Shown: piece after piece, positions 628-7,469 of the stretch | Numbering within the stretch: position 1 is the stretch's first letter | Layout of the letters: the number at the start of each line of letters is the position of its first letter | Assembly (NCBI GenBank): GCA_002690445.1 | Contig: NZER01000247.1 | Span: forward strand, 1 to 8,802 | Direction of reading: 5' to 3' | Length of the DNA stretch: 8,802 bases | Source: Candidatus Pacearchaeota archaeon | Lineage (GTDB): Archaea; Nanoarchaeota; Nanoarchaeia; Pacearchaeales; GW2011-AR1 | Program-made: the position numbers and the translations under genes | Notes under the pieces: model-generated | What the model saw: only the letters and a program-made list of their open reading frames with translations | Told to the model about the DNA's origin: nothing | The model's database searches: none

Positions 628-2442
628 CTACATCTCCCCCAACACCCCCACCCCCAACAACCCCAGCCCCTTTTTCATCACAACCCGAAACGCTTCCACA
701 AGCTGCAGCCTAAACCCCTCTTCTTCAGAACCTAAAACAGGACAGCAGTGATAAAACTCATTAAAATCCTTAGCTAACTCATAACAATAATTTGCAATCA
801 AACTCGGCGCCAAATTATCATAAGCACTTTCAACAACACTCCCAAAACCATCTAACTTTTTCAAAAGCCGTATCTCCTCATCTTTCAAATCAACAATCTT
901 CATCACCTTCCCGCCCTTAACCTTCCGCACAATAGAACTAGCCCTCGCATAACTATAAAGCAAGTAAGGTCCTGTATCTCCTTCAAATTTCAATGCCTGA
1001 GTTTTATCAAAAATAATATTCTTATTAGAACTCTGTTTTAACATCGAATACTTAATCGCAGCAACAGCCACCGCCAACCCCCTCTTCTCCAACTCTTTCT
1101 TACTCAACTTAAACCTCTTCGCAATCTCACTCTCAGCATAACTAACAATCTCCTTTTTAAAATCAGAATACAAAATATTATCCCCAGTCCGCGAAGACAT
1201 CTTACCCGTCGGCAACCTCACCATCCCATAACTCACATGACCAATCTTACCCGCATTCTTAACCCCATCTAACTTCAAAGTCTTAACTAACTGCTTCATA
1301 TGCAGATCCTGTTCATTTGCCACCACATAAAGAGACCTATCTAATTTAAAATCTTTAAACTTTTTTTCAGCAAGAGCCAAATCTTTTGCAGAATATAAAA
1401 CAGTGCCATCACTTCGAAGCAAAACCCAGACACCTAATCCCTTATTCCCTTTAACATAATCAAGCGATTTGCTCTTAACTAATTTATTTGGATTCGCTAA
1501 GGGTAGGTGGGTGGGCGATTTGCTTTTGCTTACGTTCCGTCCAAGTGCAAGAGTGAATTGCGAGTCGGGATTCTTAAGAGCAAATCGCGACAAATCCATA
1601 ATCACTGCCCCGTCAGAAACCTTTGCGACTTTCTTTTTAACTAACTCCTTAACAATCTGCTTCCCCCCCTTTTCCATATCAGATTCAAAATAATATTTAT
1701 CAAACTTAGTATTCAAATCCTTATAAATAATCTCCAACGAATCTAAACTCAACTTCCGCGTCTTTTTCCACAACTCATTTAATTCCTTATCCTGTCTTGC
1801 ATCCAGCTTCTTGTTCACCTCATTCACTTCTTGCTGAAGTTTCTCATTCTTTGCCAATCTTTTAACAGCATCAACATAAATTCCAGCTACCCACGACTCA
1901 TCCTTTTTCAATTTCTCATTTTTATGATATTTATTATAACACCAAATCCACTTTGCAACATGCATCCCTGTATCCCCCTGATAATTTGCCCTCACAACTT
2001 TATTTCCAACTGCTTCAAAAATCCTTGCTAAACTTTCCCCAATACTAGTGCCCCGAATATGCCCAATATGAAACGCCTTATGAGTATTTGCCTGAGAAAA
2101 CTCTATCATAACTTTTCCCCCAGCCCTCCTCCCAGCCCCACCTACCACCCCCACCCCTGCCAAAACCCTCGCCGCTAAAATCTTCTTATCAATAAAAAAA
2201 TTCACATAACCTCCTTTGAAATCCACATTTGAAATCTCCTTAGGCAAACCATCCCTACGAATTTTCTCAGCCAACTCCTCAGCAATCAGCATCACATTTT
2301 TCTTTTCCTTCTTAGCAAGTGCAAAACACGGAAAAGCATAATCCCCCAAATCATCTTGCGGCGGCACTTCCACTAACTCCTCTACCTCACCCCGAGAAAG
2401 CCCCACTTCTTTTAAAATCAGCTCAACAACTATCTTTTTCAT
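628..2442 (-). CDS. argS: Arginyl-tRNA synthetase with an in-frame palindromic insertion
   Basis: A cytosolic class I synthetase that charges tRNA-Arg with arginine using ATP. The ATG at 2440-2442 gives 604 residues; an upstream TTG at 2446-2448 is a poorer start. Visible parts: N-terminal additional domain (about 1-90); the pre-HIGH segment IEFSQANTHKAF and the HIGH motif at 125-128; the KMSKS-type loop KMSSR at 414-418; the anticodon-binding DALR domain starting at ALKFEGDTGPYLLYSYARA (about 483); and an intact C-terminus. Residues about 286-335, between VIMDLS and GLGVWVLLRSDGT, are an extra block of about 50 residues rich in Lys, Ser and Pro. It coincides with the palindromic element at 1464-1588. 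Without it the length would be about 554, normal for the family. The frame is intact, so the protein is probably functional. The linker AGVGVVGGAGRRAGG (about 95-109) is built from G-run codons. The minor start ambiguity does not affect identity. Confidence 0.96.
   Translation of the reverse strand: MKKIVVELILKEVGLSRGEVEELVEVPPQDDLGDYAFPCFALAKKEKKNVMLIAEELAEKIRRDGLPKEISNVDFKGGYVNFFIDKKILAARVLAGVGVVGGAGRRAGGKVMIEFSQANTHKAFHIGHIRGTSIGESLARIFEAVGNKVVRANYQGDTGMHVAKWIWCYNKYHKNEKLKKDESWVAGIYVDAVKRLAKNEKLQQEVNEVNKKLDARQDKELNELWKKTRKLSLDSLEIIYKDLNTKFDKYYFESDMEKGGKQIVKELVKKKVAKVSDGAVIMDLSRFALKNPDSQFTLALGRNVSKSKSPTHLPLANPNKLVKSKSLDYVKGNKGLGVWVLLRSDGTVLYSAKDLALAEKKFKDFKLDRSLYVVANEQDLHMKQLVKTLKLDGVKNAGKIGHVSYGMVRLPTGKMSSRTGDNILYSDFKKEIVSYAESEIAKRFKLSKKELEKRGLAVAVAAIKYSMLKQSSNKNIIFDKTQALKFEGDTGPYLLYSYARASSIVRKVKGGKVMKIVDLKDEEIRLLKKLDGFGSVVESAYDNLAPSLIANYCYELAKDFNEFYHCCPVLGSEEEGFRLQLVEAFRVVMKKGLGLLGVGVLGEM
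637..673 (-). other. G-run cluster in the ArgRS sense strand, potential G-quadruplex
   Basis: Read on the minus strand, the last codons of ArgRS contain GGGG-CT-GGGG-TTGTT-GGGGG-T-GGGGG. That is four G-runs of four or more with short loops, a canonical quadruplex pattern that would also be present in the mRNA. It encodes the GLGLLGVGVLG tail. Whether it folds is unknown. Confidence 0.45.
1464..1588. repeat. Palindromic in-frame element 1 (inside argS), 125 bp
   Basis: Perfect 15-bp inverted arms GCGATTTGCTCTTAA (1464-1478) and TTAAGAGCAAATCGC (1574-1588) bound the element. The order on the + strand is left arm, AT-rich spacer, G-rich core GGGTAGGTGGGTGGGCG (1501-1517), then a second, direct copy of the arm's first ten bases (1515-1524) overlapping the core, a 49-base segment with a possible 7-bp imperfect hairpin (CTTTTGC ... 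GCAAGAG), and the right arm. The host frame stays open throughout. The insertion in the protein, about residues 286-335, matches these limits plus a few flanking codons. The core and layout recur in the two ABCE1 elements, while the arm sequences differ. Confidence 0.75.
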
Positions 2443-2460
2443 AACCAAACATAAGAAAAC

Positions 2461-2473
2461 TCTTTAATAAATC
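2461..2473 (-). promoter_or_regulatory. Possible TATA box for argS
   Basis: The minus strand reads GATTTATTAAAGA about 20 bases before the argS ATG. It lies in the 37-base gap after the upstream membrane-protein gene, so argS may have its own promoter as well as read-through. No Shine-Dalgarno sequence is seen before the ATG. Confidence 0.3.
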
Positions 2474-2479
2474 TTACTT

Positions 2480-2653
2480 TTACTTCTTCTTCAACATCTT
2501 AAAAAGAGCCATTGCCAAAAACCCCAGCCCCAACCCCAAAAGCACCCCCGCCCCCCACTGATCATAAATTCCCCCAAGCCCCAAACCAATCAACAACCCC
2601 GCAGGAATAAACAACCCAACATTGTCCTCTTTTTGTTTTTTATCTTTCGCCAT
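2480..2653 (-). CDS. Small two-helix membrane protein, 57 residues
   Basis: The ATG at 2651-2653 opens a frame of 57 codons to TAA at 2480-2482. A charged N-terminus (MAKDKKQKED) is followed by two hydrophobic segments: NVGLFIPAGLLIGLGLGG (about 11-28) and GAGVLLGLGLGFLAMALF (about 34-51), then a basic tail KMLKKK. This is the organisation of small Gly-rich inner-membrane hairpin proteins, and the positive tail predicts both ends in the cytoplasm. No enzymatic motif is present and function is unknown. It ends 37 bases before the argS start on the same strand and probably shares its transcript. The Gly codons are mostly GGG or GGA in runs of G, giving further quadruplex-like tracts on the sense strand (about 2519-2560). 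Short length is the only weakness; composition and context support a real gene. Confidence 0.75.
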   Translation of the reverse strand: MAKDKKQKEDNVGLFIPAGLLIGLGLGGIYDQWGAGVLLGLGLGFLAMALFKMLKKK

Positions 2654-2683
2654 CTTTAAATTAAAACATCACCAATTAAAAAC

Positions 2684-2694
2684 CTTTTTATATC
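2684..2694 (+). promoter_or_regulatory. TATA box upstream of the broken membrane-protein genes
   Basis: The + strand reads CTTTTTATATC, centred about 25 bases before the ATG at 2714. That spacing predicts a nearly leaderless transcript. The same 60-base gap must also hold the promoter of the divergent 57-residue gene. Confidence 0.5.
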
Positions 2695-2713
2695 TAAAAA
2701 ACCATACAAAAAC

Positions 2714-3080
2714 ATGGCATGGCTCCCAATTGCAATCATCACCATAATCATAATTCTCGGGATTCTTAGCCGCCCTTAGCATCTATTATGCAAAAAAATC
2801 CGGCAAAAAAAGACCCACAGACTACTACACATTTTTCATTCTCGGAGTTGTCTGGCTAATCATCGGCATCTCTGGAAAAAACTCCACCTTTTTTATTCTC
2901 GGATTAGTTTTCACAGCAATCGGATTAACCCATCAAAAAGATTGGAAAAAAACCAAAGTAAAATGGAGCGACCTCACTAAACCAGAAAAAACCATAAGAA
3001 CAATCCTAATTACAACCTTAGGAATCTTAGCCCTCGCCAGCTTAGTTGTATTTTTCCTAATTAAAAAAAGCATCATCTAA
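2714..3080 (+). pseudogene. Membrane protein, about 121 residues, broken by +1 base
   Basis: The ATG at 2714 reads MAWLPIAIITIIIILGILSRP and then stops. Removing one G from the GGG at 2759-2761 restores a continuous frame (…LGFLAALSIYYAKKSGKKRP…) to TAA at 3078-3080, for 121 residues. The restored product has about four hydrophobic segments: 3-25, 37-53, 58-72 and 96-117. Basic loops (YYAKKSGKKRPTD; KDWKKTKVKW) lie between them. No motif for a function is visible; small proteins of this look are frequent in DPANN archaea. The 3' part has no usable start in its own frame, so as written the gene would give only a short peptide. The break is either a sequencing or assembly indel at a homopolymer or a recent inactivation. 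The next gene starts inside its stop codon (TAATG), showing the two were made as a coupled pair. Confidence 0.65.
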
Positions 3081-3285
3081 TGGAAACAAAACACCTACTC
3101 ACCTTAACCTGGCCCAAATTATGGCTAATCGCAATCACCGGCTTTGTCTCAATACTCCTCCACAACCTCCTAAGCTACGCTTTTGATTTTGAAGAACCTT
3201 TTTTCTTCACAATAGTAATCATCATCCTCCCCTATATTTCGCTATATGTGTAATCTACACCCTCTTTCAAAAAACTAGAAAATAA
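3080..3285 (+). pseudogene. Small membrane protein, about 68 residues, broken by -1 base
   Basis: The ATG at 3080-3082 shares its A with the stop codon of the gene before, a TAATG coupling. As written, the frame ends at TAA 3251-3253 after 57 residues. Adding one T to the TTT at 3237-3239 gives a better C-terminus, ILPYIFAICVIYTLFQKTRK, ending at TAA 3283-3285 with a basic tail. Hydrophobic segments lie at about 13-34 and 41-60. Its type is a two-helix membrane protein with an acidic loop (FDFEEP) between the helices; function is unknown. The shorter reading could be real, but the restored one has the helix-plus-basic-tail ending expected of such proteins. It converges on the 91-residue gene 13 bases further on. 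Confidence 0.6.
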
Positions 3286-3298
3286 TCAATCAGCATAA

Positions 3299-3574
3299 TC
3301 AAAAAAACTGATCAAGAAAATAACGAACTGCTGTCGGTCCACTATGAGATCTCAATATTCTTCCATCTGCATTTCGCTCCCAAACCCTATAATACCTAGA
3401 AGTCGGAATAAGGGCTAGACCCACCCCCCACCCCCCCAATTCCAAAAATTTATCTCGGAATTCAACATGATTCGGATCACGGCAATTACTAAAAACAGTC
3501 AACCTTGCAGGCAATTCCACTTCTGTTTTTCCACCTGCTCTTTCTTCTGTTTCCTCTGCTACCCCTTCAGCCAT
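3299..3574 (-). CDS. Hypothetical 91-residue protein
   Basis: Function not recognised. The ATG at 3572-3574 opens 91 codons. Residues 1-20 are acidic and low in complexity (MAEGVAEETEERAGGK). The rest looks globular, with a WGVGLALIPTSRYYRVWERN segment in the middle and an aromatic C-terminus (RYFLDQFF). There is one Cys and no signal peptide or membrane helix. A G-run stretch (GGGGGGGTGGGGGGTGGG, minus strand, about 3421-3438) encodes LGGWGVG. Its promoter block (3595-3619) is a near copy, at identical spacing, of the one before the 140-residue gene at 133-555, so the two unknown genes are likely controlled alike. The + strand here is not as C-biased as in the flanking genes. Confidence 0.6.
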   Translation of the reverse strand: MAEGVAEETEERAGGKTEVELPARLTVFSNCRDPNHVEFRDKFLELGGWGVGLALIPTSRYYRVWERNADGRILRSHSGPTAVRYFLDQFF

Positions 3575-3594
3575 AATTAAAAAATAGATAATAA

Positions 3595-3619
3595 CTTTTT
3601 AAAAATTTGTATACTAAAA
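3595..3619 (-). promoter_or_regulatory. Promoter of the 91-residue gene, near copy of that at 576-600
   Basis: The minus strand reads TTTTAGTATACAAAT then TTTTTAAAAAG, ending 20 bases before the ATG at 3574. It differs from the block at 576-600 at only two of 25 positions. The similarity extends across the TATA-like core and the bases before it. Confidence 0.55.
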
Positions 3620-3692
3620 TTACTAGGGTAAAACATTTCAAAGAAAATAATGTACTAAACACCCAATCTAAAAAAGGAAAAAAACAAAACTT

Positions 3693-3700
3693 TTTATATA
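3693..3700 (+). promoter_or_regulatory. TATA box of the structured RNA gene
   Basis: TTTATATA stands 20-27 bases before base 3720, where the closing stem of the RNA begins. That is the archaeal TATA-to-start distance, so transcription would start almost exactly at the 5' end of the fold. Confidence 0.6.
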
Positions 3701-3719
3701 CATAATCCCTATATAATTC

Positions 3720-3818
3720 AGATAAAGATACCTAATGTATGGCTCTAATAGTTTCGGACGAACGAGCCTTGTTAGGCCTACGGGGAGTTCGCTCCCAATC
3801 TTTATCTACAAATTTTTT
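3720..3818 (+). ncRNA. Structured small RNA, three-way junction, family unknown
   Basis: The + strand can fold as follows. P1 is a perfect 10-bp closing stem, AGATAAAGAT (3720-3729) with ATCTTTATCT (3798-3807). P2 has a base CCTAA (3731-3735) with TTAGG (3772-3776), an internal loop, then GGCTC (3741-3745) with GAGCC (3764-3768), a five-base bulge UAAUA, and a small apical hairpin (GTTTC/GAAC, loop GGAC). P3 is GGGAG (3783-3787)-UUCG-CUCCC (3792-3796). A TATA box lies at the right distance upstream and a six-T run (3813-3818) follows, so the unit has its own start and stop. An ACA (3808-3810) follows P1 directly, as in box H/ACA guides, but the branched form is not typical of that class. It is not a standard tRNA, SRP RNA or RNase P. 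Its 3' end overlaps the end of the opposite-strand gene. Alternative: a non-coding palindromic repeat. The fold was made by eye. Confidence 0.6.
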
Positions 3819-4309
3819 CTAATAACCTCCTCCAACTTCTCTAAATCCCTAGCAGTTAAACAATAATCTTCTTTTTTTCTCACCCTCAGAACATCATTAG
3901 CTAATCTATGAGCTCTTGATTTTTTCTTTTTATTCCTCTTAAATCTTAAACTAATATAATTTGTTACTGGTTCATCTTTATAGAACTTACAAATCTTTGA
4001 TAACGATTTAGAAACAAGGAACAAAGGTTCATAATCTCGACAAACAGAAACTGCCTTAACCCATTCTTTATTCAAGGTAATTAATTTAAAGATCAAAAAA
4101 GAATATATCATAACAACAACTTTTTTATTATGTTTCCTATCTGATTTATCTCCTAATTCCGAAATAAACTTCTTTTTCAGAATTTTTTTATCTGAAGATT
4201 TGATTTTAACAGAAAATCCAAAATTTCTATTCTTCATCGCAAGAATCGTATCCTTAGTCCACTTATTATCAATTTGATTTGCCAAGTCTACTTCAAATCT
4301 CTCAACCAT
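3806..4309 (-). CDS. Hypothetical basic 167-residue protein, coupled to ABCE1
   Basis: The ATG at 4307-4309 comes one base after the ABCE1 stop codon (4311-4313), which makes it the natural start. An upstream in-frame ATG at 4360 would overlap ABCE1 by 50 bases and add only an Arg/Gly-rich stretch that is the ABCE1 end read out of frame. The protein is strongly basic and soluble. A hydrophobic strand-like segment (VVVMIYSFLIFKLI, about 66-79) is followed by CRDYE (about 91-95) and, near the C-terminus, SRAHRLANDVLR. The succession of strand, D-x-E and a Ser/Ala-His-x-Leu-Ala helix reminds me of small archaeal proteins with a possible RNase H-like fold, but this is recollection, not proof. Ordinary reading: unknown, co-transcribed with ABCE1. 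Its stop overlaps the 3' end of the structured RNA on the other strand. Confidence 0.65.
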   Translation of the reverse strand: MVERFEVDLANQIDNKWTKDTILAMKNRNFGFSVKIKSSDKKILKKKFISELGDKSDRKHNKKVVVMIYSFLIFKLITLNKEWVKAVSVCRDYEPLFLVSKSLSKICKFYKDEPVTNYISLRFKRNKKKKSRAHRLANDVLRVRKKEDYCLTARDLEKLEEVIRKNL

Positions 4310-4310
4310 C

Positions 4311-6290
4311 TTAAAAAACAACCCACCGCCCCGCCGCCTTCTGCTCCCTATCCAAAACACTCCCCCTCTTATTTATCCTAGGCCTCCCACTCTCCTTATC
4401 TTTCCTCAGCGTAACATCCAACTCCTTCAATAATTTACTCACCCCTTCTTCAAATTCCAAAACTTCTGAACTCTCTCCCTGCTTACCACTCTCTCCAGAA
4501 AACACAATTACATTATCAGCTAAATAAGAAATCAAAAGCAAATCATGATCAACAACAAAAGCTGTCTTCTCCTTCTCAGTCATAATTTCCTTAACTGCCT
4601 TAGCAACAGCAATCCTCTCCTCAACATCAAGATAAGCACTTGGCTCATCCACCAAATAAATATCAGCTTTCTTAGCAAGACACCTCGCAATACTAAACCT
4701 CTGCAGCTCCCCCCCGCTCAACTCCCCCACCTTTTTCTGCTGCAACACACCCAAATTAAAAATCGTCGCAAGCTTCTTGCCCATCTTCTCCCTAATCATA
4801 ATATCGCGAACAACTTCATCACTTTTTGTAAAAAGATACTGCGGCTTATAACTAACCTCCAACTTACCTAAGTCCAATTTCCCATTACTTGTCTCAATTT
4901 CCCCTGCCAACGCCCGCACAAAACTTGTCTTCCCTGTCCCATTCCGCCCCAAAATCCCAATCACATGATTTTCATGAATCTCTCCTGCTTTTACTTTTAA
5001 TGAAAATCCGCCGCCCTCGCCCCCCGAAGCAAACGACTTAGAATCTGATGTTGCGTTCACAACATCACTATTTGTGGGTGGGTGGGCGGGTCGTTTGCTT
5101 CCAAAAGACTTACTCGCTTCGCTCGCACTAGTAATCTTACCATTCCCCACATTACTCCCAGATTTGCTTAATTTGCCATCACCACCAAACTCCAAGCTAA
5201 AATCACCCCACCCCGCCACCCTCTTCCCCTTTCTCGCAAGATTCTTAGTGAAATTAAAATTCAACTCCTTATCCCTAATTCTCAAATTCTCCTCTTTTAA
5301 AAAACCTTGAAGATAAGCATTCACCCCTGCCTTACTCGCCTTCACTCCAGACACCAGCCCAAACGCCCCCTGACTCCCGAAAAAAATATTCAAATAATCT
5401 GTCAAATAATCCAAAATCAACAAATCATGTTCAACAACCACAACTGTCTTGTCCTTAGCAATCCTAGAAATAAAATCACTCACCCTTAACCTCTCACCAA
5501 TATCCAAATAAGCCAACGGCTCATCAAAAAAATAAATATCACTCTCACCAAGCGAAGCAGCTAAAATCGCCACCCTCTGCAGCTCACCCCCAGACAACTT
5601 ATCCAACTTATTTTCCAAAACATTTTCTACATTCAATTCCCCTGCCAACCTCTTAATCTCCCCAACCTTTCCCCGCTTCTTAAGCAAATCTATAACTTTC
5701 ACCCCAACAGCAAGCGAAGATAAATTCTGCGGTTTGTATGCAATCTTTTTGCCTTCTAAATCATCAAAATATTTTTGCAATTCTGTTCCTTGTAGGAATT
5801 TTTTAACATCAGAAGATAAAAAGGGATCTGGATCATTATCTTCGCTTCTGCGAAGGGTGGGACCCGTGGCTTTGCCACGGCTTTGGGCGGGCATGTCAGA
5901 TCCCGCACCAGATAAACCCAGATTCATCCCCACTTTCCCAGCCAAAATCTCAACAGCAGTAGACTTTCCAATCCCATTTCGCCCCAACAGCCCTAAAACC
6001 GAACCTGCCTTAGGCACAGGCAGCCCGTAAAGTGCAAAATCATTTTTCCCAAAACGATAAACCAAATCCTCCTCCTTTACCGAAGGTAAATTAATAATAT
6101 CAATTGCCTCAAAAGGACACTGCCTCACACAAATTGAACACCCGTTACAAGTCTCCTCATCAATCCGCGCCTTTCCCTTAATAGTCACACAACTATCTGC
6201 TTCTTTTTTCTCTACCGGACAAAACTTCTTGCACTCATGCCCGCAAGCAGCTGGCTTGCATTTTTCCTTATGAATTACAGCTAATCTCAT
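4311..6290 (-). CDS. rli1: ABCE1/Rli1 ribosome-recycling ATPase with two in-frame insertions
   Basis: ABCE1 is a cytosolic iron-sulfur twin-ATPase that splits ribosomal subunits after termination and binds the small subunit. Visible parts of 659 residues: two [4Fe-4S] sites, C11-x4-C16-x3-C20-x3-C24 and C48-x2-C51-x2-C54-x3-C58; NBD1 with Walker A GRNGIGKS (103-110), signature LSGGELQRV (232-240), Walker B FFDEP and His switch EHDL (287-290); NBD2 with Walker A GRNGTGKT (448-455), LSGGELQRF, VDEP (547-550) and DHDL (581-584); and the usual end RPRINKRGSVLDREQ. All catalytic residues are present. Two blocks are extra: about 125-155, just after the first P-loop helix (…MNLG), and about 370-427, before NBD2. 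They coincide with the palindromic elements at 5823-5904 and 5026-5101. Without them the length is about 572, near the family norm. The insertions keep frame, so the protein is probably active. The 167-residue gene follows one base downstream. Confidence 0.96.
   Translation of the reverse strand: MRLAVIHKEKCKPAACGHECKKFCPVEKKEADSCVTIKGKARIDEETCNGCSICVRQCPFEAIDIINLPSVKEEDLVYRFGKNDFALYGLPVPKAGSVLGLLGRNGIGKSTAVEILAGKVGMNLGLSGAGSDMPAQSRGKATGPTLRRSEDNDPDPFLSSDVKKFLQGTELQKYFDDLEGKKIAYKPQNLSSLAVGVKVIDLLKKRGKVGEIKRLAGELNVENVLENKLDKLSGGELQRVAILAASLGESDIYFFDEPLAYLDIGERLRVSDFISRIAKDKTVVVVEHDLLILDYLTDYLNIFFGSQGAFGLVSGVKASKAGVNAYLQGFLKEENLRIRDKELNFNFTKNLARKGKRVAGWGDFSLEFGGDGKLSKSGSNVGNGKITSASEASKSFGSKRPAHPPTNSDVVNATSDSKSFASGGEGGGFSLKVKAGEIHENHVIGILGRNGTGKTSFVRALAGEIETSNGKLDLGKLEVSYKPQYLFTKSDEVVRDIMIREKMGKKLATIFNLGVLQQKKVGELSGGELQRFSIARCLAKKADIYLVDEPSAYLDVEERIAVAKAVKEIMTEKEKTAFVVDHDLLLISYLADNVIVFSGESGKQGESSEVLEFEEGVSKLLKELDVTLRKDKESGRPRINKRGSVLDREQKAAGRWVVF
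5026..5101. repeat. Palindromic in-frame element 2 (ABCE1 hinge), 76 bp
   Basis: Perfect 12-bp inverted arms are GAAGCAAACGAC (5026-5037) and GTCGTTTGCTTC (5090-5101). Inside is a perfect 8-bp hairpin TGATGTTG-CGTTCA-CAACATCA (5046-5067), then the core GGGTGGGTGGGCGGG (5076-5090), which abuts and shares one base with the right arm. The host frame is open; the encoded block is rich in Ser, Lys, Ala and Pro (…KRPAHPPTNSD…). In the protein the element lies between two copies of SKSF. Bases just beyond the right arm (CTTACTCGCTTCGCTCGC, about 5110-5127) resemble the CTTACGTTCCGTCC stretch at a comparable place in element 1, so the mobile unit may be longer than the arms. Confidence 0.75.
5076..5090 (+). 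other. Canonical G-quadruplex motif in element 2
   Basis: Four GGG runs are separated by single bases (T, T, C), the pattern expected to form a very stable parallel quadruplex. It is on the template strand of ABCE1; the mRNA carries the C-rich complement. Folding is known chemistry for such a motif, but a role here is inference. Confidence 0.7.
5823..5904. repeat. Palindromic in-frame element 3 (ABCE1 NBD1), 82 bp
   Basis: Perfect 8-bp arms are GGGATCTG (5823-5830) and CAGATCCC (5897-5904). Inside are two perfect hairpins: CTTCGC-TTCT-GCGAAG (5840-5855) and CCGTGGC-TTT-GCCACGG (5864-5880). The G-core is split: GGGTGGG (5855-5861) before the second hairpin and GGGCGGG (5885-5891) after it, the same two halves that are joined by a single T in element 2. 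The host frame stays open and encodes about 30 extra residues (…AQSRGKATGPTLRRSEDND…). Confidence 0.72.
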
Positions 6291-6367: not shown

Positions 6368-6385
6368 AGTTTCAAACGAAACCAA
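6368..6385 (+). promoter_or_regulatory. Degenerate third operator copy
   Basis: AGTTTCAAACGAAACCAA is a variant of the repeated AGTTTCAATTGAACCAA found at 6391 and 6454. It is itself near-palindromic (GTTTC…GAAAC). It lies 23 bases, about two helical turns, before the first perfect copy, on the side of the ABCE1 promoter, so a bound protein could touch both promoters. Confidence 0.5.
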
Positions 6386-6388
6386 TAA

Positions 6389-6407
6389 GTAGTTTCAATT
6401 GAACCAA
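6389..6407 (+). promoter_or_regulatory. Operator copy 1, upstream of the TATA box
   Basis: GTAGTTTCAATTGAACCAA has a perfect palindromic centre, TTCAATTGAA. The same 19 bases recur at 6452-6470, 63 bases on. This copy ends five bases before the TATA box (6412-6419) of the HEPN/nucleotidyltransferase operon, where archaeal activators or repressors and TFB bind. Confidence 0.65.
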
Positions 6408-6411
6408 AAGA

Positions 6412-6419
6412 TTTATAAA
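6412..6419 (+). promoter_or_regulatory. TATA box of the HEPN/nucleotidyltransferase operon
   Basis: TTTATAAA lies between the two identical operator copies. Transcription should start near 6437-6445, giving a leader of about 25-33 bases that contains the second operator copy. Confidence 0.6.
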
Positions 6420-6451
6420 CACTAATTCATAGTTACATGTGAAACCCTAAG

Positions 6452-6470
6452 GTAGTTTCAATTGAACCAA
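6452..6470 (+). promoter_or_regulatory. Operator copy 2, overlapping the start codon
   Basis: This is identical over 19 bases to copy 1. Its last A is the first base of the ATG at 6470. The bases before it add an inverted GAAACC…GGTAGTTTC arrangement (6441-6460), so this site may be a double one. Protein bound here would block the start site; the RNA copy could also act in translation. Confidence 0.65.
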
Positions 6471-6868
6471 TGAAAAATGAAACTCATCTAAGAAACTTAA
6501 ATGAAAGCTTAAAATTAATAGAGGAAAGTATAGAAAAAGGACTCATTGAAAGACAAAGGACAATTGGGTTTAATACTTCAGCTGCATCTGCAGATATGTT
6601 AGAAATCCTTCTACATAAAAACGATCTTATTGACATTGGATTTATAATTAAACATGAGTGGCTGAAATCAAAAAATCAAATAAAGAACAAACTTCCATTT
6701 GACTTCCCTAAGAAAAAAGAAATTATTGATTTAATATTCAAAATAGAAGAAAAAAGAAATATCCTATGTTATGGCAAATCACAAAAAATTGAAATCATTC
6801 AAGAAGTTTTAGACAATTTTAATAAATTAAAAAGAACTTTTAAGGAGGCTGGTCTAAATGAAATCTAA
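6470..6868 (+). CDS. HEPN-like protein, partner of a nucleotidyltransferase
   Basis: The product has 132 residues, nearly all helical, without signal peptide. HEPN proteins paired with minimal nucleotidyltransferases (the HepT/MntA class) are RNase toxins that the partner neutralises by adding AMP. Their active motif is R-x4-6-H, usually RNxxxHxY. Here the matching place reads R96-N-I-L-C-Y101-G-K: Arg and Asn are kept, but His is replaced by Tyr and the usual following Tyr is Lys. I recall related archaeal proteins with the same RN-x-LCYG string, which would make this a subfamily feature. The start ATG overlaps the second operator copy. The nucleotidyltransferase starts 11 bases before this gene's stop, behind an AAGGAGG ribosome-binding site (about 6841-6847). 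Alternative: a non-catalytic substrate-binding HEPN. Pairing is well supported; toxicity is inference. Confidence 0.7.
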   Translation: MKNETHLRNLNESLKLIEESIEKGLIERQRTIGFNTSAASADMLEILLHKNDLIDIGFIIKHEWLKSKNQIKNKLPFDFPKKKEIIDLIFKIEEKRNILCYGKSQKIEIIQEVLDNFNKLKRTFKEAGLNEI

Positions 6869-7469
6869 CTTAATCGCATATGCTCTAGACTTTGTTTCCT
6901 TTTTAATTCAAAAAACAAAACAAAAAGACAAAATTAAAAACATTATTTTATTTGGTTCAGTTGCAAGAGATGATGCCAGCAAAACAAGTGATGTTGATAT
7001 ATTTATTGATGTAATAAATGAATCTAAAATTGAACAAGAATTAGATAGAACCTTAAGTGAATTTCTAGATTCCACAAAATATAAAAATTACTGGAAAGCT
7101 CTTGGAATAGAAAATGAAATAAAATTATCCATAGGAAACTTAAACAAATGGAAAGAACTAAAGCCAAGTATTATTGCAAATGGCATATTGCTATACGGAA
7201 AATTTAAACCAGAAATAAAAGAAGGAGAACATAAAGTATTTTTTATCTGGGAAAACATAAAACCAAATTCTAAAAGAGTTTTACTTAACAAACAATTATT
7301 CGGCTATAAACAAAAACAAAATTCTTATGATGGCTTACTCCAAAAATATGAAGGAAAAAGACTTGGCAAGGGATGCATTATTGTTCCTCTGGAATATTCT
7401 AAAATTTTCCACAATTTCTTTAAAAAATATAAGGCAACAGTAAAAATTAAAAAAGTCTTAGAATACTAA
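6858..7469 (+). CDS. MNT-type nucleotidyltransferase with C-terminal extension
   Basis: The product has 203 residues. The motif FGSVARDDASKTSDVDIFI (about 32-50) is the GS-x10-D-x-D signature of polymerase-beta-type minimal nucleotidyltransferases: Gly33-Ser34 bind the nucleotide phosphates, Asp45 and Asp47 bind Mg. The third carboxylate is not certain (Glu85 or Glu87 in GIENEIKLSI are candidates). Typical MntA antitoxins are about 100-140 residues. This one has about 90 extra, including KYEGKRLGKGCIIVPLEYSK (about 163-182), which looks like a small separate beta-alpha domain and may be the part that binds the operator repeats. It overlaps the HEPN gene and has a strong Shine-Dalgarno, so the pair is co-translated. 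The likely role is modification of the HEPN partner or its RNA target. Family is clear from the motif; toxin-antitoxin function is inferred from context. Confidence 0.85.
   Translation: MKSNLIAYALDFVSFLIQKTKQKDKIKNIILFGSVARDDASKTSDVDIFIDVINESKIEQELDRTLSEFLDSTKYKNYWKALGIENEIKLSIGNLNKWKELKPSIIANGILLYGKFKPEIKEGEHKVFFIWENIKPNSKRVLLNKQLFGYKQKQNSYDGLLQKYEGKRLGKGCIIVPLEYSKIFHNFFKKYKATVKIKKVLEY

Follow-up and report, generated by a model that had tools for sequence, protein, structure and literature searches.

Candidate G-cored palindromic repeats within the ArgRS and ABCE1 genes of a Pacearchaeota archaeon

Palindromic blocks in two translation genes

The stretch of DNA analyzed here, called the window below, is an 8,802-nt contig of an uncultured Candidatus Pacearchaeota archaeon (NZER01000247.1, assembly GCA_002690445.1) in which three G-rich palindromic blocks, E1, E2, and E3, lie in frame inside two genes for translation proteins. 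Both host genes are on the minus strand: arginyl-tRNA synthetase (ArgRS; 628-2442; Pfam tRNA-synt_1d, DALR_1, Arg_tRNA_synt_N), with 604 aa against 551-575 aa in most listed relatives, and the ribosome-recycling ATPase ABCE1/RLI (4311-6290, 659 aa; Pfam ABC_tran, Fer4_RLI, Fer4), whose model has ABCE1 of Pyrococcus abyssi (3bk7) as its best PDB fold match. The closest ABCE1 loci, among the matches listed, are metagenome-assembled genome records titled Pacearchaeota, Nanoarchaeota, or archaeon; the host genes of the window are archaeal. The first-pass annotation of this DNA had placed E1 in ArgRS at 1464-1588 and E2 and E3 in ABCE1 at 5026-5101 and 5823-5904, with perfect arms of 15, 12, and 8 bp; these coordinates and arms stand as described.

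Read along the plus strand, E1 is bounded by GCGATTTGCTCTTAA and TTAAGAGCAAATCGC and carries the G-rich core GGGTAGGTGGGTGGGCG (1501-1517), an imperfect quadruplex motif with GG replacing one GGG; the arm recurs internally as GCGATTTGCT (1515-1524), which overlaps the end of this core and forms an inverted repeat with 1579-1588. E2, with arms GAAGCAAACGAC and GTCGTTTGCTTC, contains an AT-rich hairpin, TGATGTTG...CAACATCA (5046-5067), and the quadruplex-type core GGGTGGGTGGGCGGG (5076-5090), the only textbook (G3N1)3G3 core of the three; its 76-bp palindrome encodes about 25 aa of a 57-aa insert, which thus exceeds the palindrome. The arms of E3 are GGGATCTG and CAGATCCC, and its core consists of two halves, GGGTGGG (5855-5861) and GGGCGGG (5885-5891), separated by the hairpin CCGTGGC-TTT-GCCACGG (5864-5880) and preceded by a second one, CTTCGC-TTCT-GCGAAG (5840-5855), both of which also appear in the coding-strand fold. 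As a sequence motif, four G3 runs with short loops are complete in E2 and in 36 cores of a related genome discussed below (G121), and imperfect in E1 and E3. The blocks have only fragments of core plus arm in common; the peptides that they encode differ (examples are SKSPTHLPLANPNK and RPAHPPTNSDVV), and the reading frame stays open through all three. All six GGGNGGG words on the plus strand of the window fall inside E1-E3, and overlapping GGG words number 32 on this strand against 272 on the minus strand. The fragment AAGCAAANSGNCCCRCCCACC, present in E1 and E2, had no match in viral contigs.

Against 250 dinucleotide shuffles of the window, perfect inverted repeats of at least 12 bp are in excess (three observed, mean 0.07): the arms of E1, the arms of E2, and a match between 5712-5723 and 5836-5847. 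Two GGGNGGG clusters lie within such repeats (mean 0.004) and four within repeats of at least 8 bp (mean 0.54), with none of the 250 shuffles as high in either case. The palindromes of E1 and E2 are not products of chance. Repeats of at least 8 bp taken together are near the shuffle expectation (22 observed, mean 17, P 0.16), so E3, with arms of 8 bp, lacks significance on the arms alone; despite these weak arms, it contains two strong hairpins. The original observation is confirmed, with corrections as to the arms of E3, the length of the E2 insert, and the cores of E1 and E3.

The third inverted repeat of at least 12 bp joins native ABCE1 sequence (5712-5723) to the inner part of E3 (5836-5847), and might be a trace of template switching from neighboring gene sequence.

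The blocks had also been described as extra sequence at sites where these conserved proteins normally have none, a description that would suffer if the relatives all carried them; in the alignments, the relatives' sites are empty. The 47-aa E1 insert is lacking in all 119 aligned ArgRS relatives (the best 119 of 5717 matches), and also in 19 aligned ArgRS relatives; the E2 and E3 inserts are lacking in all 120 aligned ABCE1 relatives (the best 120 of 7632 metagenome proteins) and at the ABCE1 loci of 14 relatives' genomes, a fifteenth close locus, L037, having been excluded because it matched piecewise. A different 20-aa insert occupies the site of E1 in one ArgRS (P0006), and other inserts of at least 7 aa occur at the loop of E2 (core columns 340-342) in 12 of the 120 ABCE1 relatives and, at the loop of E3 (core columns 126-131), in six. 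Over the whole of ABCE1, 31 of the 120 relatives carry a total of 50 inserts of at least 7 aa, most of which lie at core columns 37-39, 126-131, 340-342, and 380-391; the row count varies with the aligner's gap splitting. By these alignments, the ABCE1 loops bearing E2 and E3 are insertion hot spots.

A third type of insert, of about 9 aa (SGDKAREGQ, GDDPAGPSG), recurs at ABCE1 core columns 341 and 391 (P0121-P0240), and inserts of similar look are present in ArgRS of P0006 and P0010.

One possibility is that E1-E3 are ordinary low-complexity loop expansions, with palindromes and G runs arising by chance. The other inserts in relatives' ABCE1 fit this idea, and E3 taken alone, with its arms at P 0.16, could be explained in this way. 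As an account of all three blocks it is very unlikely: the E1 and E2 palindromes and the coincidence of core and palindrome are beyond chance, and homologous copies recur at unrelated sites within each of three related genomes (G121, G160, and G172, below).

The expectation that the inserts would map to surface loops is borne out to the extent that they fall in stretches predicted to be disordered: AlphaFold confidence (predicted local distance difference test, pLDDT) is below 50 at ABCE1 residues 125-154 and 370-427 and at ArgRS residues 291-333, coinciding with the inserts, in models built from shallow alignments (28 and 20 sequences). The iron-sulfur domain of ABCE1 (residues 1-88) is also modeled poorly, so low pLDDT by itself is no proof of disorder. 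E1-E3 are lineage-specific in-frame inserts located in predicted disordered stretches.

Archaea possess introns with bulge-helix-bulge junctions, and inserts closed by paired arms could be such introns, removed from the mRNA. This is extremely improbable here: the frame is open through the window blocks and through the in-gene copies in relatives, which splicing would not need, a point that is partly one of ascertainment in that the copies were recognized by their open frames. Bulge-helix-bulge structures were assessed by eye, on minimum-energy folds. Searches of the window with Rfam (E up to 1) and a tRNA scan gave no matches.

G-cored palindromes in related genomes

Additional copies were sought in the genomes of relatives of the window organism (working labels G001 and so on), 180 of them sampled from the order. 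A shorter core, GGGTGGGTGGGCG, occurs with up to one mismatch in 52 of the 180. Outside G121, enclosing arms of at least 11 bp surround 5 of 48 fetched cores (13-mer, up to one mismatch), against 3 of 600 random centers; most of these G-runs are probably unremarkable or accompanied by no more than a neighboring hairpin, and genomes with true elements probably make up much less than 52/180 of the sample. At loci L252, L253, L259, and L261 (in G172, G167, and G083), a hairpin directly precedes the G core and does not enclose it. The wider family suggested in the first-pass annotation is in part supported: G-cored palindromes with copy-specific arms are present in some relatives. Their occurrence is patchy, and the exact core GGGTGGGNGGGCGGG, with one mismatch allowed, was absent from the 14 genomes picked by ABCE1 similarity.

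The richest source is G121, with 36 exact G3N1G3N1G3N1G3 cores in about 0.9 Mb at about 31% GC; 33 of these, in fetched stretches, form the basis of the copy analyses. In 29 of the 33, the core is enclosed by perfect arms of at least 9 bp, and the median arm is 12 bp; of 600 random centers, 19 reach that length, with a median of 6 bp and one center at 16 bp. A typical copy reads AATTTTACTTCA-TAATAAA-GGGTGGGTGGGAGGG-TTTATTATA-TGAAGTAAAATT. Left arms are related yet diverged, with a median pairwise identity of 50% over the 33 copies. Arms pair at 80.5% of positions in the best register, against a mean of 59.3% (maximum 66.5%) when right arms are reassigned among copies, and double-sided changes number 140 against 60 (maximum 84); pairing above the reassigned-arm level means that every copy retains its own pairing. 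G172 has 14 cores, and a longer form, GGTGGGCGAGCARTTACRCGAG, is identical in G121 and G172 (three copies each) and, at up to two mismatches, was not found in the other 178 genomes. Another form, TTCGNGAGTACNAATT-spacer-core, is present in eight homologous copies in G160, with enclosing arms of at least 8 bp in six of the eight, and was not found in five other genomes searched.

Such dispersed palindromes, within and between genes, could be non-autonomous transposons of the miniature inverted-repeat transposable element (MITE) or repetitive extragenic palindromic (REP) type. They would then be mobilized by a transposase working in trans, for example an IS200/IS605-like or RAYT Y1 enzyme with single-stranded hairpins as its substrate. 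Of 14 genomes searched, eight have Y1_Tnp, some of them bearers of the repeats; matches, with fragments counted, number one in G172, six in G175, five in G009, and ten in G008. A strand bias of the kind described below is also expected of elements that use single-stranded DNA at replication forks. The possibility is nevertheless unlikely. Y1_Tnp (PF01797, the sole transposase family searched) was not found in G121, G160, G006, G001, G007, or G116, genomes that may be incomplete; G121 and G006, without a match, are the richest in G-cored repeats and in the R1 family (below), respectively. One transposase would moreover be expected to conserve the terminal repeats, and the arms diverge to the extent given above.

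Copies also occur in frame inside genes of the relatives. NCBIfam models matched all nine host proteins tested, with the RsmF-like and Trm5-like proteins far under the curated cut-off. In G121, Bud32 has two in-frame copies, each reading SNTIKREGGRVL (arms of 10 and 6 bp), family-B DNA polymerase (PolB) has one (15 bp), and Taw3 has one (12 bp); in G160, mutually homologous copies with arms of 8-9 bp lie in frame in Bud32, a Trm5-like protein, and the weakly matched RsmF-like protein. Weaker cases without clear arms are Kae1 of G121 (8 bp), deoxyhypusine synthase of G126, and LeuRS of G083. In pairwise comparisons, the Kae1 insert of G121 faces a gap, as do the first Bud32 copy of G121 and the Bud32 copy of G160; the second Bud32 copy of G121 is at a site where G160 has other extra sequence. 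Armed copies are sense to the host gene in Bud32 (three copies), PolB, and the RsmF-like gene, and antisense in Taw3 and the Trm5-like gene. The fixed orientation relative to the host gene that had been noted for the three window blocks is therefore not a property of the relatives' copies; in G121, the strand follows nucleotide skew instead. By a simple open reading frame (ORF) caller, 28 of the 33 G121 cores are intergenic.

This polarity is clear in G121: of 33 G cores, 32 occupy whichever strand is locally C-rich; locus L312 accounts for two cases with near-zero skew, one of them the sole exception. The same holds for all seven cores read of the 14 in G172. In G160, the eight homologous copies all share a strand and lie within a span of about 150 kb on a 623-kb contig. 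The plus strand of the window, which carries all three cores, has a skew of -0.44 with the blocks masked, the same polarity as in G121. Polarity is clear in G121 and G172 only and is no general rule. The G-rich strand is usually the leading strand; if this applies here, the G core would sit in the leading-strand template.

Another possibility is that the repeats are functional polar DNA signals for replication pausing, segregation, or recombination, in the manner of KOPS or Chi, maintained by selection and located in genes incidentally. Both the skew-related polarity in G121 and G172 and the compensation that maintains the arms would be understandable on this basis. KOPS are, however, unpaired and located on the G-rich (leading-like) strand, and in both genomes the G core is on the other strand; presence among relatives is patchy, and enzyme interiors are an odd location for a conserved signal. 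All in all, such a signaling role is quite unlikely.

R1, a second in-gene palindrome, and other repeats

A second and unrelated palindromic family, R1, is present in conserved genes of the relatives (loci L141-L206; e.g., L144:6174-6232, L190:5311-5369). It was discovered via in-gene inserts of relatives' ABCE1 and consists of 54-65 nt with the layout CACGTAATAGTG-TA-CCCTCTAAA-hairpin-TCTTCATCGGGCAAG. A simple pattern, CCCTCTAAAN{6,30}TCTTC, was discarded: it matched in 87 of 180 genomes, mostly by chance, and a reversed control pattern also matched many genomes. The real family was recognized in G006, G001, G008, G118, and G013 and then rebuilt as a structure model, which gave 44 matches in 14 of the 180 genomes (E up to 0.001), each of them then read; among 378 genomes sampled from the class it was found in six (E up to 1e-5), all already known from within the order. 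These counts are lower bounds, with 30 candidates scored per genome in the order search and 14 in the class search. The best match of the R1 model in the window has an E of only 0.62, so the window blocks are not R1.

At E 1e-4 or better there are 38 R1 matches in 12 genomes, 32 of them sense to the gene and in a single frame, with the peptide (A/T)RNSVPSK..VPSSSGK in the best copies. The other six, all in G009, are outside the common frame and in no sense ORF of more than 102 aa; three have an internal stop, and one is opposite a 273-aa open stretch. The G009 copies (L195, L197, L200, L202, L193, L205) have 3' ends like TTTTAATCGGG or TCTTAATTGGG with TAA, and most in-gene copies have TCTTCATCGGG. 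The six weakest matches of the full set, in G107 and G108, are shorter variants, one of them in another frame. Since the other frames of R1 contain stops, the fixed frame may reflect survival rather than aim. NCBIfam models matched 17 of 20 host proteins tested; hosts include Kae1, PheS (2), PheT, ArgRS (2), topoisomerase I, UvrD-like (2), TatD-like, TrmY (2), L32e, and Elp3, as well as ABCE1.

Pairing in R1 is supported by covariation: among 36 distinct copies, 9 of 12 pairs have changes on both sides, and the score is 0.332 against 0.129 for shuffled and at most 0.064 for slid alignments, the alignment itself being fitted to the model; when 10 copies are aligned with MAFFT, the score is 0.231 against 0.085. 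In 35 of 38 cases the strand bearing R1 is the locally G-rich one, a bias confounded with gene sense. On a 394-kb contig of G006, all nine copies (one clipped at the slice border) are on the minus strand; the ORFs there number 163 plus and 217 minus.

Two further repeat arrangements are found in the window itself. An intergenic block at 3720-3807 has 10-bp inverted repeats, AGATAAAGAT/ATCTTTATCT, at its ends and no Rfam match. In the region 6368-6470 and 6470-7469, a 132-aa ORF and a Pol-beta-type nucleotidyltransferase are preceded by two direct repeats of 40 bp that are 80% alike and contain AGTTTCAATTGAACCAA; this arrangement resembles an MNT-type toxin-antitoxin operon with operators.

Possible spread by replication and relation to known repeats

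In a small-genomed, Pacearchaeota-like order of DPANN archaea, G-cored repeats are found both in intergenic DNA and, with the frame kept, within conserved genes. The relatives have many copies per genome (G121, G160), pairing of arms with their own partners (G121), strand bias (G121, G172, G160), and in-frame copies; the window has the same architecture, at sites empty in relatives, with an open frame, in predicted disordered loops, and with its cores on the C-rich strand. Taken together, these features suggest that E1-E3 are probably copies of lineage-specific short palindromic DNA repeats with a quadruplex-type core, the block acting as DNA and having spread at replication forks; confidence in this is lowered by the weak arms of the Kae1 copy and by a polarity that only two genomes show clearly.

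The block would work as DNA rather than as RNA or peptide: since sense and antisense copies both occur in G121 and the strand relative to skew is nearly constant, DNA would be the form selected or copied, and insertion in both senses speaks against a design at the RNA or peptide level. The G strand, forming a quadruplex, could stall the polymerase at the replication fork, and the hairpin could offer the nascent strand an alternative template, template switching then seeding new copies and perfecting the arms. Quasi-palindrome correction, known from bacterial genetics, perfects arms and is blind to their sequence, so that copy-specific arms would follow. In-gene copies would persist only if in frame and in a surface loop, their encoded peptides being tolerated passengers. 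In its full form, this would make the repeats transposase-free selfish DNA, in which fork stalling and hairpin template switching make arms perfect yet unique, fix the strand, and seed in-frame loops in essential translation and replication proteins: a tentative proposal, possible rather than probable.

Several observations weigh against both the kinship of the window blocks with the relatives' repeats and their spread at forks. Further copies come from relatives only; G008, the genome nearest by ArgRS, lacks the core even with one mismatch allowed; and the arms of E1-E3 have little sequence in common with the copies in relatives, so their kinship with those of G121 and G160 is one of architecture. 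In G121, copies within ORFs are a minority by the same simple caller (5 of 33, including Kae1 with its 8-bp arms). As to polarity, of 16 cores in nine other genomes just 7 are on the C-rich strand, skew there being weak and most cores without arms; the fetched stretches of G160 have almost no skew; and skew in the window largely tracks gene direction (-0.33 to -0.70 in minus-strand genes, -0.10 to +0.10 in plus-strand genes). The strand bias could also stem from selection after insertion, and spread linked to replication is something that we infer, not something observed.

To our knowledge, in-frame palindromic repeats have been discussed mainly for Rickettsia and Wolbachia, plus one archaeal case. 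For the latter, the repeats of Methanocaldococcus jannaschii, presumably those named MJRE, we know of no G-quadruplex core or strand polarity. The first-pass annotation had treated Rickettsia as the only well-known parallel, which overlooks the palindromic repeats reported in M. jannaschii genes in 2005 (Suyama et al., 2005, as cited in excerpts of PMC2229807 and PMC2996958). By their description in these excerpts, to which the comparison is confined, the M. jannaschii repeats share with the present ones that they are archaeal and palindromic, with some copies fused into protein genes. In-gene palindromes are thus on record for Rickettsia, Wolbachia, and M. jannaschii (excerpts of PMC2229807, PMC10969869, and PMC2996958).

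The Rickettsia palindromic elements (RPE) span 105-150 bp, have a terminal repeat of 12 bp, and encode a conserved peptide (excerpts of PMC2229807 and PMC10969869). As these excerpts portray them, the RPE and Wolbachia repeats are, like the G-cored repeats, short palindromes in frame in unrelated conserved genes as well as intergenic, in several families, in the genomes of host-dependent cells. In-frame placement in unrelated conserved genes is found here in ArgRS and ABCE1 of the window and in Bud32, PolB, and Taw3 of relatives, archaeal genes rather than those of Rickettsia. The G-cored repeats differ in length (55-125 bp), in their quadruplex-type core, in their copy-specific arms, in having no common peptide in the window, and in their polarity in two relatives. 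A common sequence with a conserved peptide in one frame, as in the RPE, is lacking in the G-cored repeats and present in R1 (32 of 38 matches), which is the closer RPE analogue of the two families.

REP elements and bacterial interspersed mosaic elements (BIMEs) are short hairpins in many copies, the REPs being extragenic with conserved sequence. Compared with REP/BIME and RAYT systems, the arms here are unconserved, copies are also genic, and the Y1 transposase was not found in G121, G160, or G006; the conserved terminal sequence of REPs and IS200/IS605-type MITEs is likewise missing, given the median left-arm identity of 50% among the 33 G121 copies. REP elements are described in excerpts of PMC4666352, as are the E. 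coli BoxC or potential intrastrand triplex elements, G-rich repeats able to adopt non-B DNA structures and associated with local instability. BoxC resembles the G-cored repeats in G-richness and non-B DNA potential, and differs in being bacterial, studied as intergenic, and defined by a triplex-forming sequence; the excerpted text of PMC4666352 describes no in-frame coding copies.

Among the open-licence PMC papers listed, no report was found of DPANN, Pacearchaeota, or archaeal palindromes or repeats with quadruplexes, in-frame insertion, or strand bias. Relative to the known in-gene palindromes, the new features are the G core, the compensating copy-specific arms, and the strand polarity, this last clear in G121 and G172 only. 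In an archaeal order whose genomes measure about 1 Mb, two unrelated families place in-frame palindromes in genes: the G-cored repeats occupy ArgRS, ABCE1, Bud32, DNA polymerase, and Taw3, and R1 occupies Kae1, PheS, PheT, ArgRS, ABCE1, topoisomerase I, and others. These cases suggest that archaeal genes can survive the spread of palindromes through them, that reduced genomes, in archaea as in bacteria, repeatedly gain coding palindromes, and that essential enzymes acquire loops in this way. With copy-specific compensating arms and, in two genomes, a bias to the C-rich strand, a replication-based origin becomes directly testable; of the two families, the G-cored one is the stranger.

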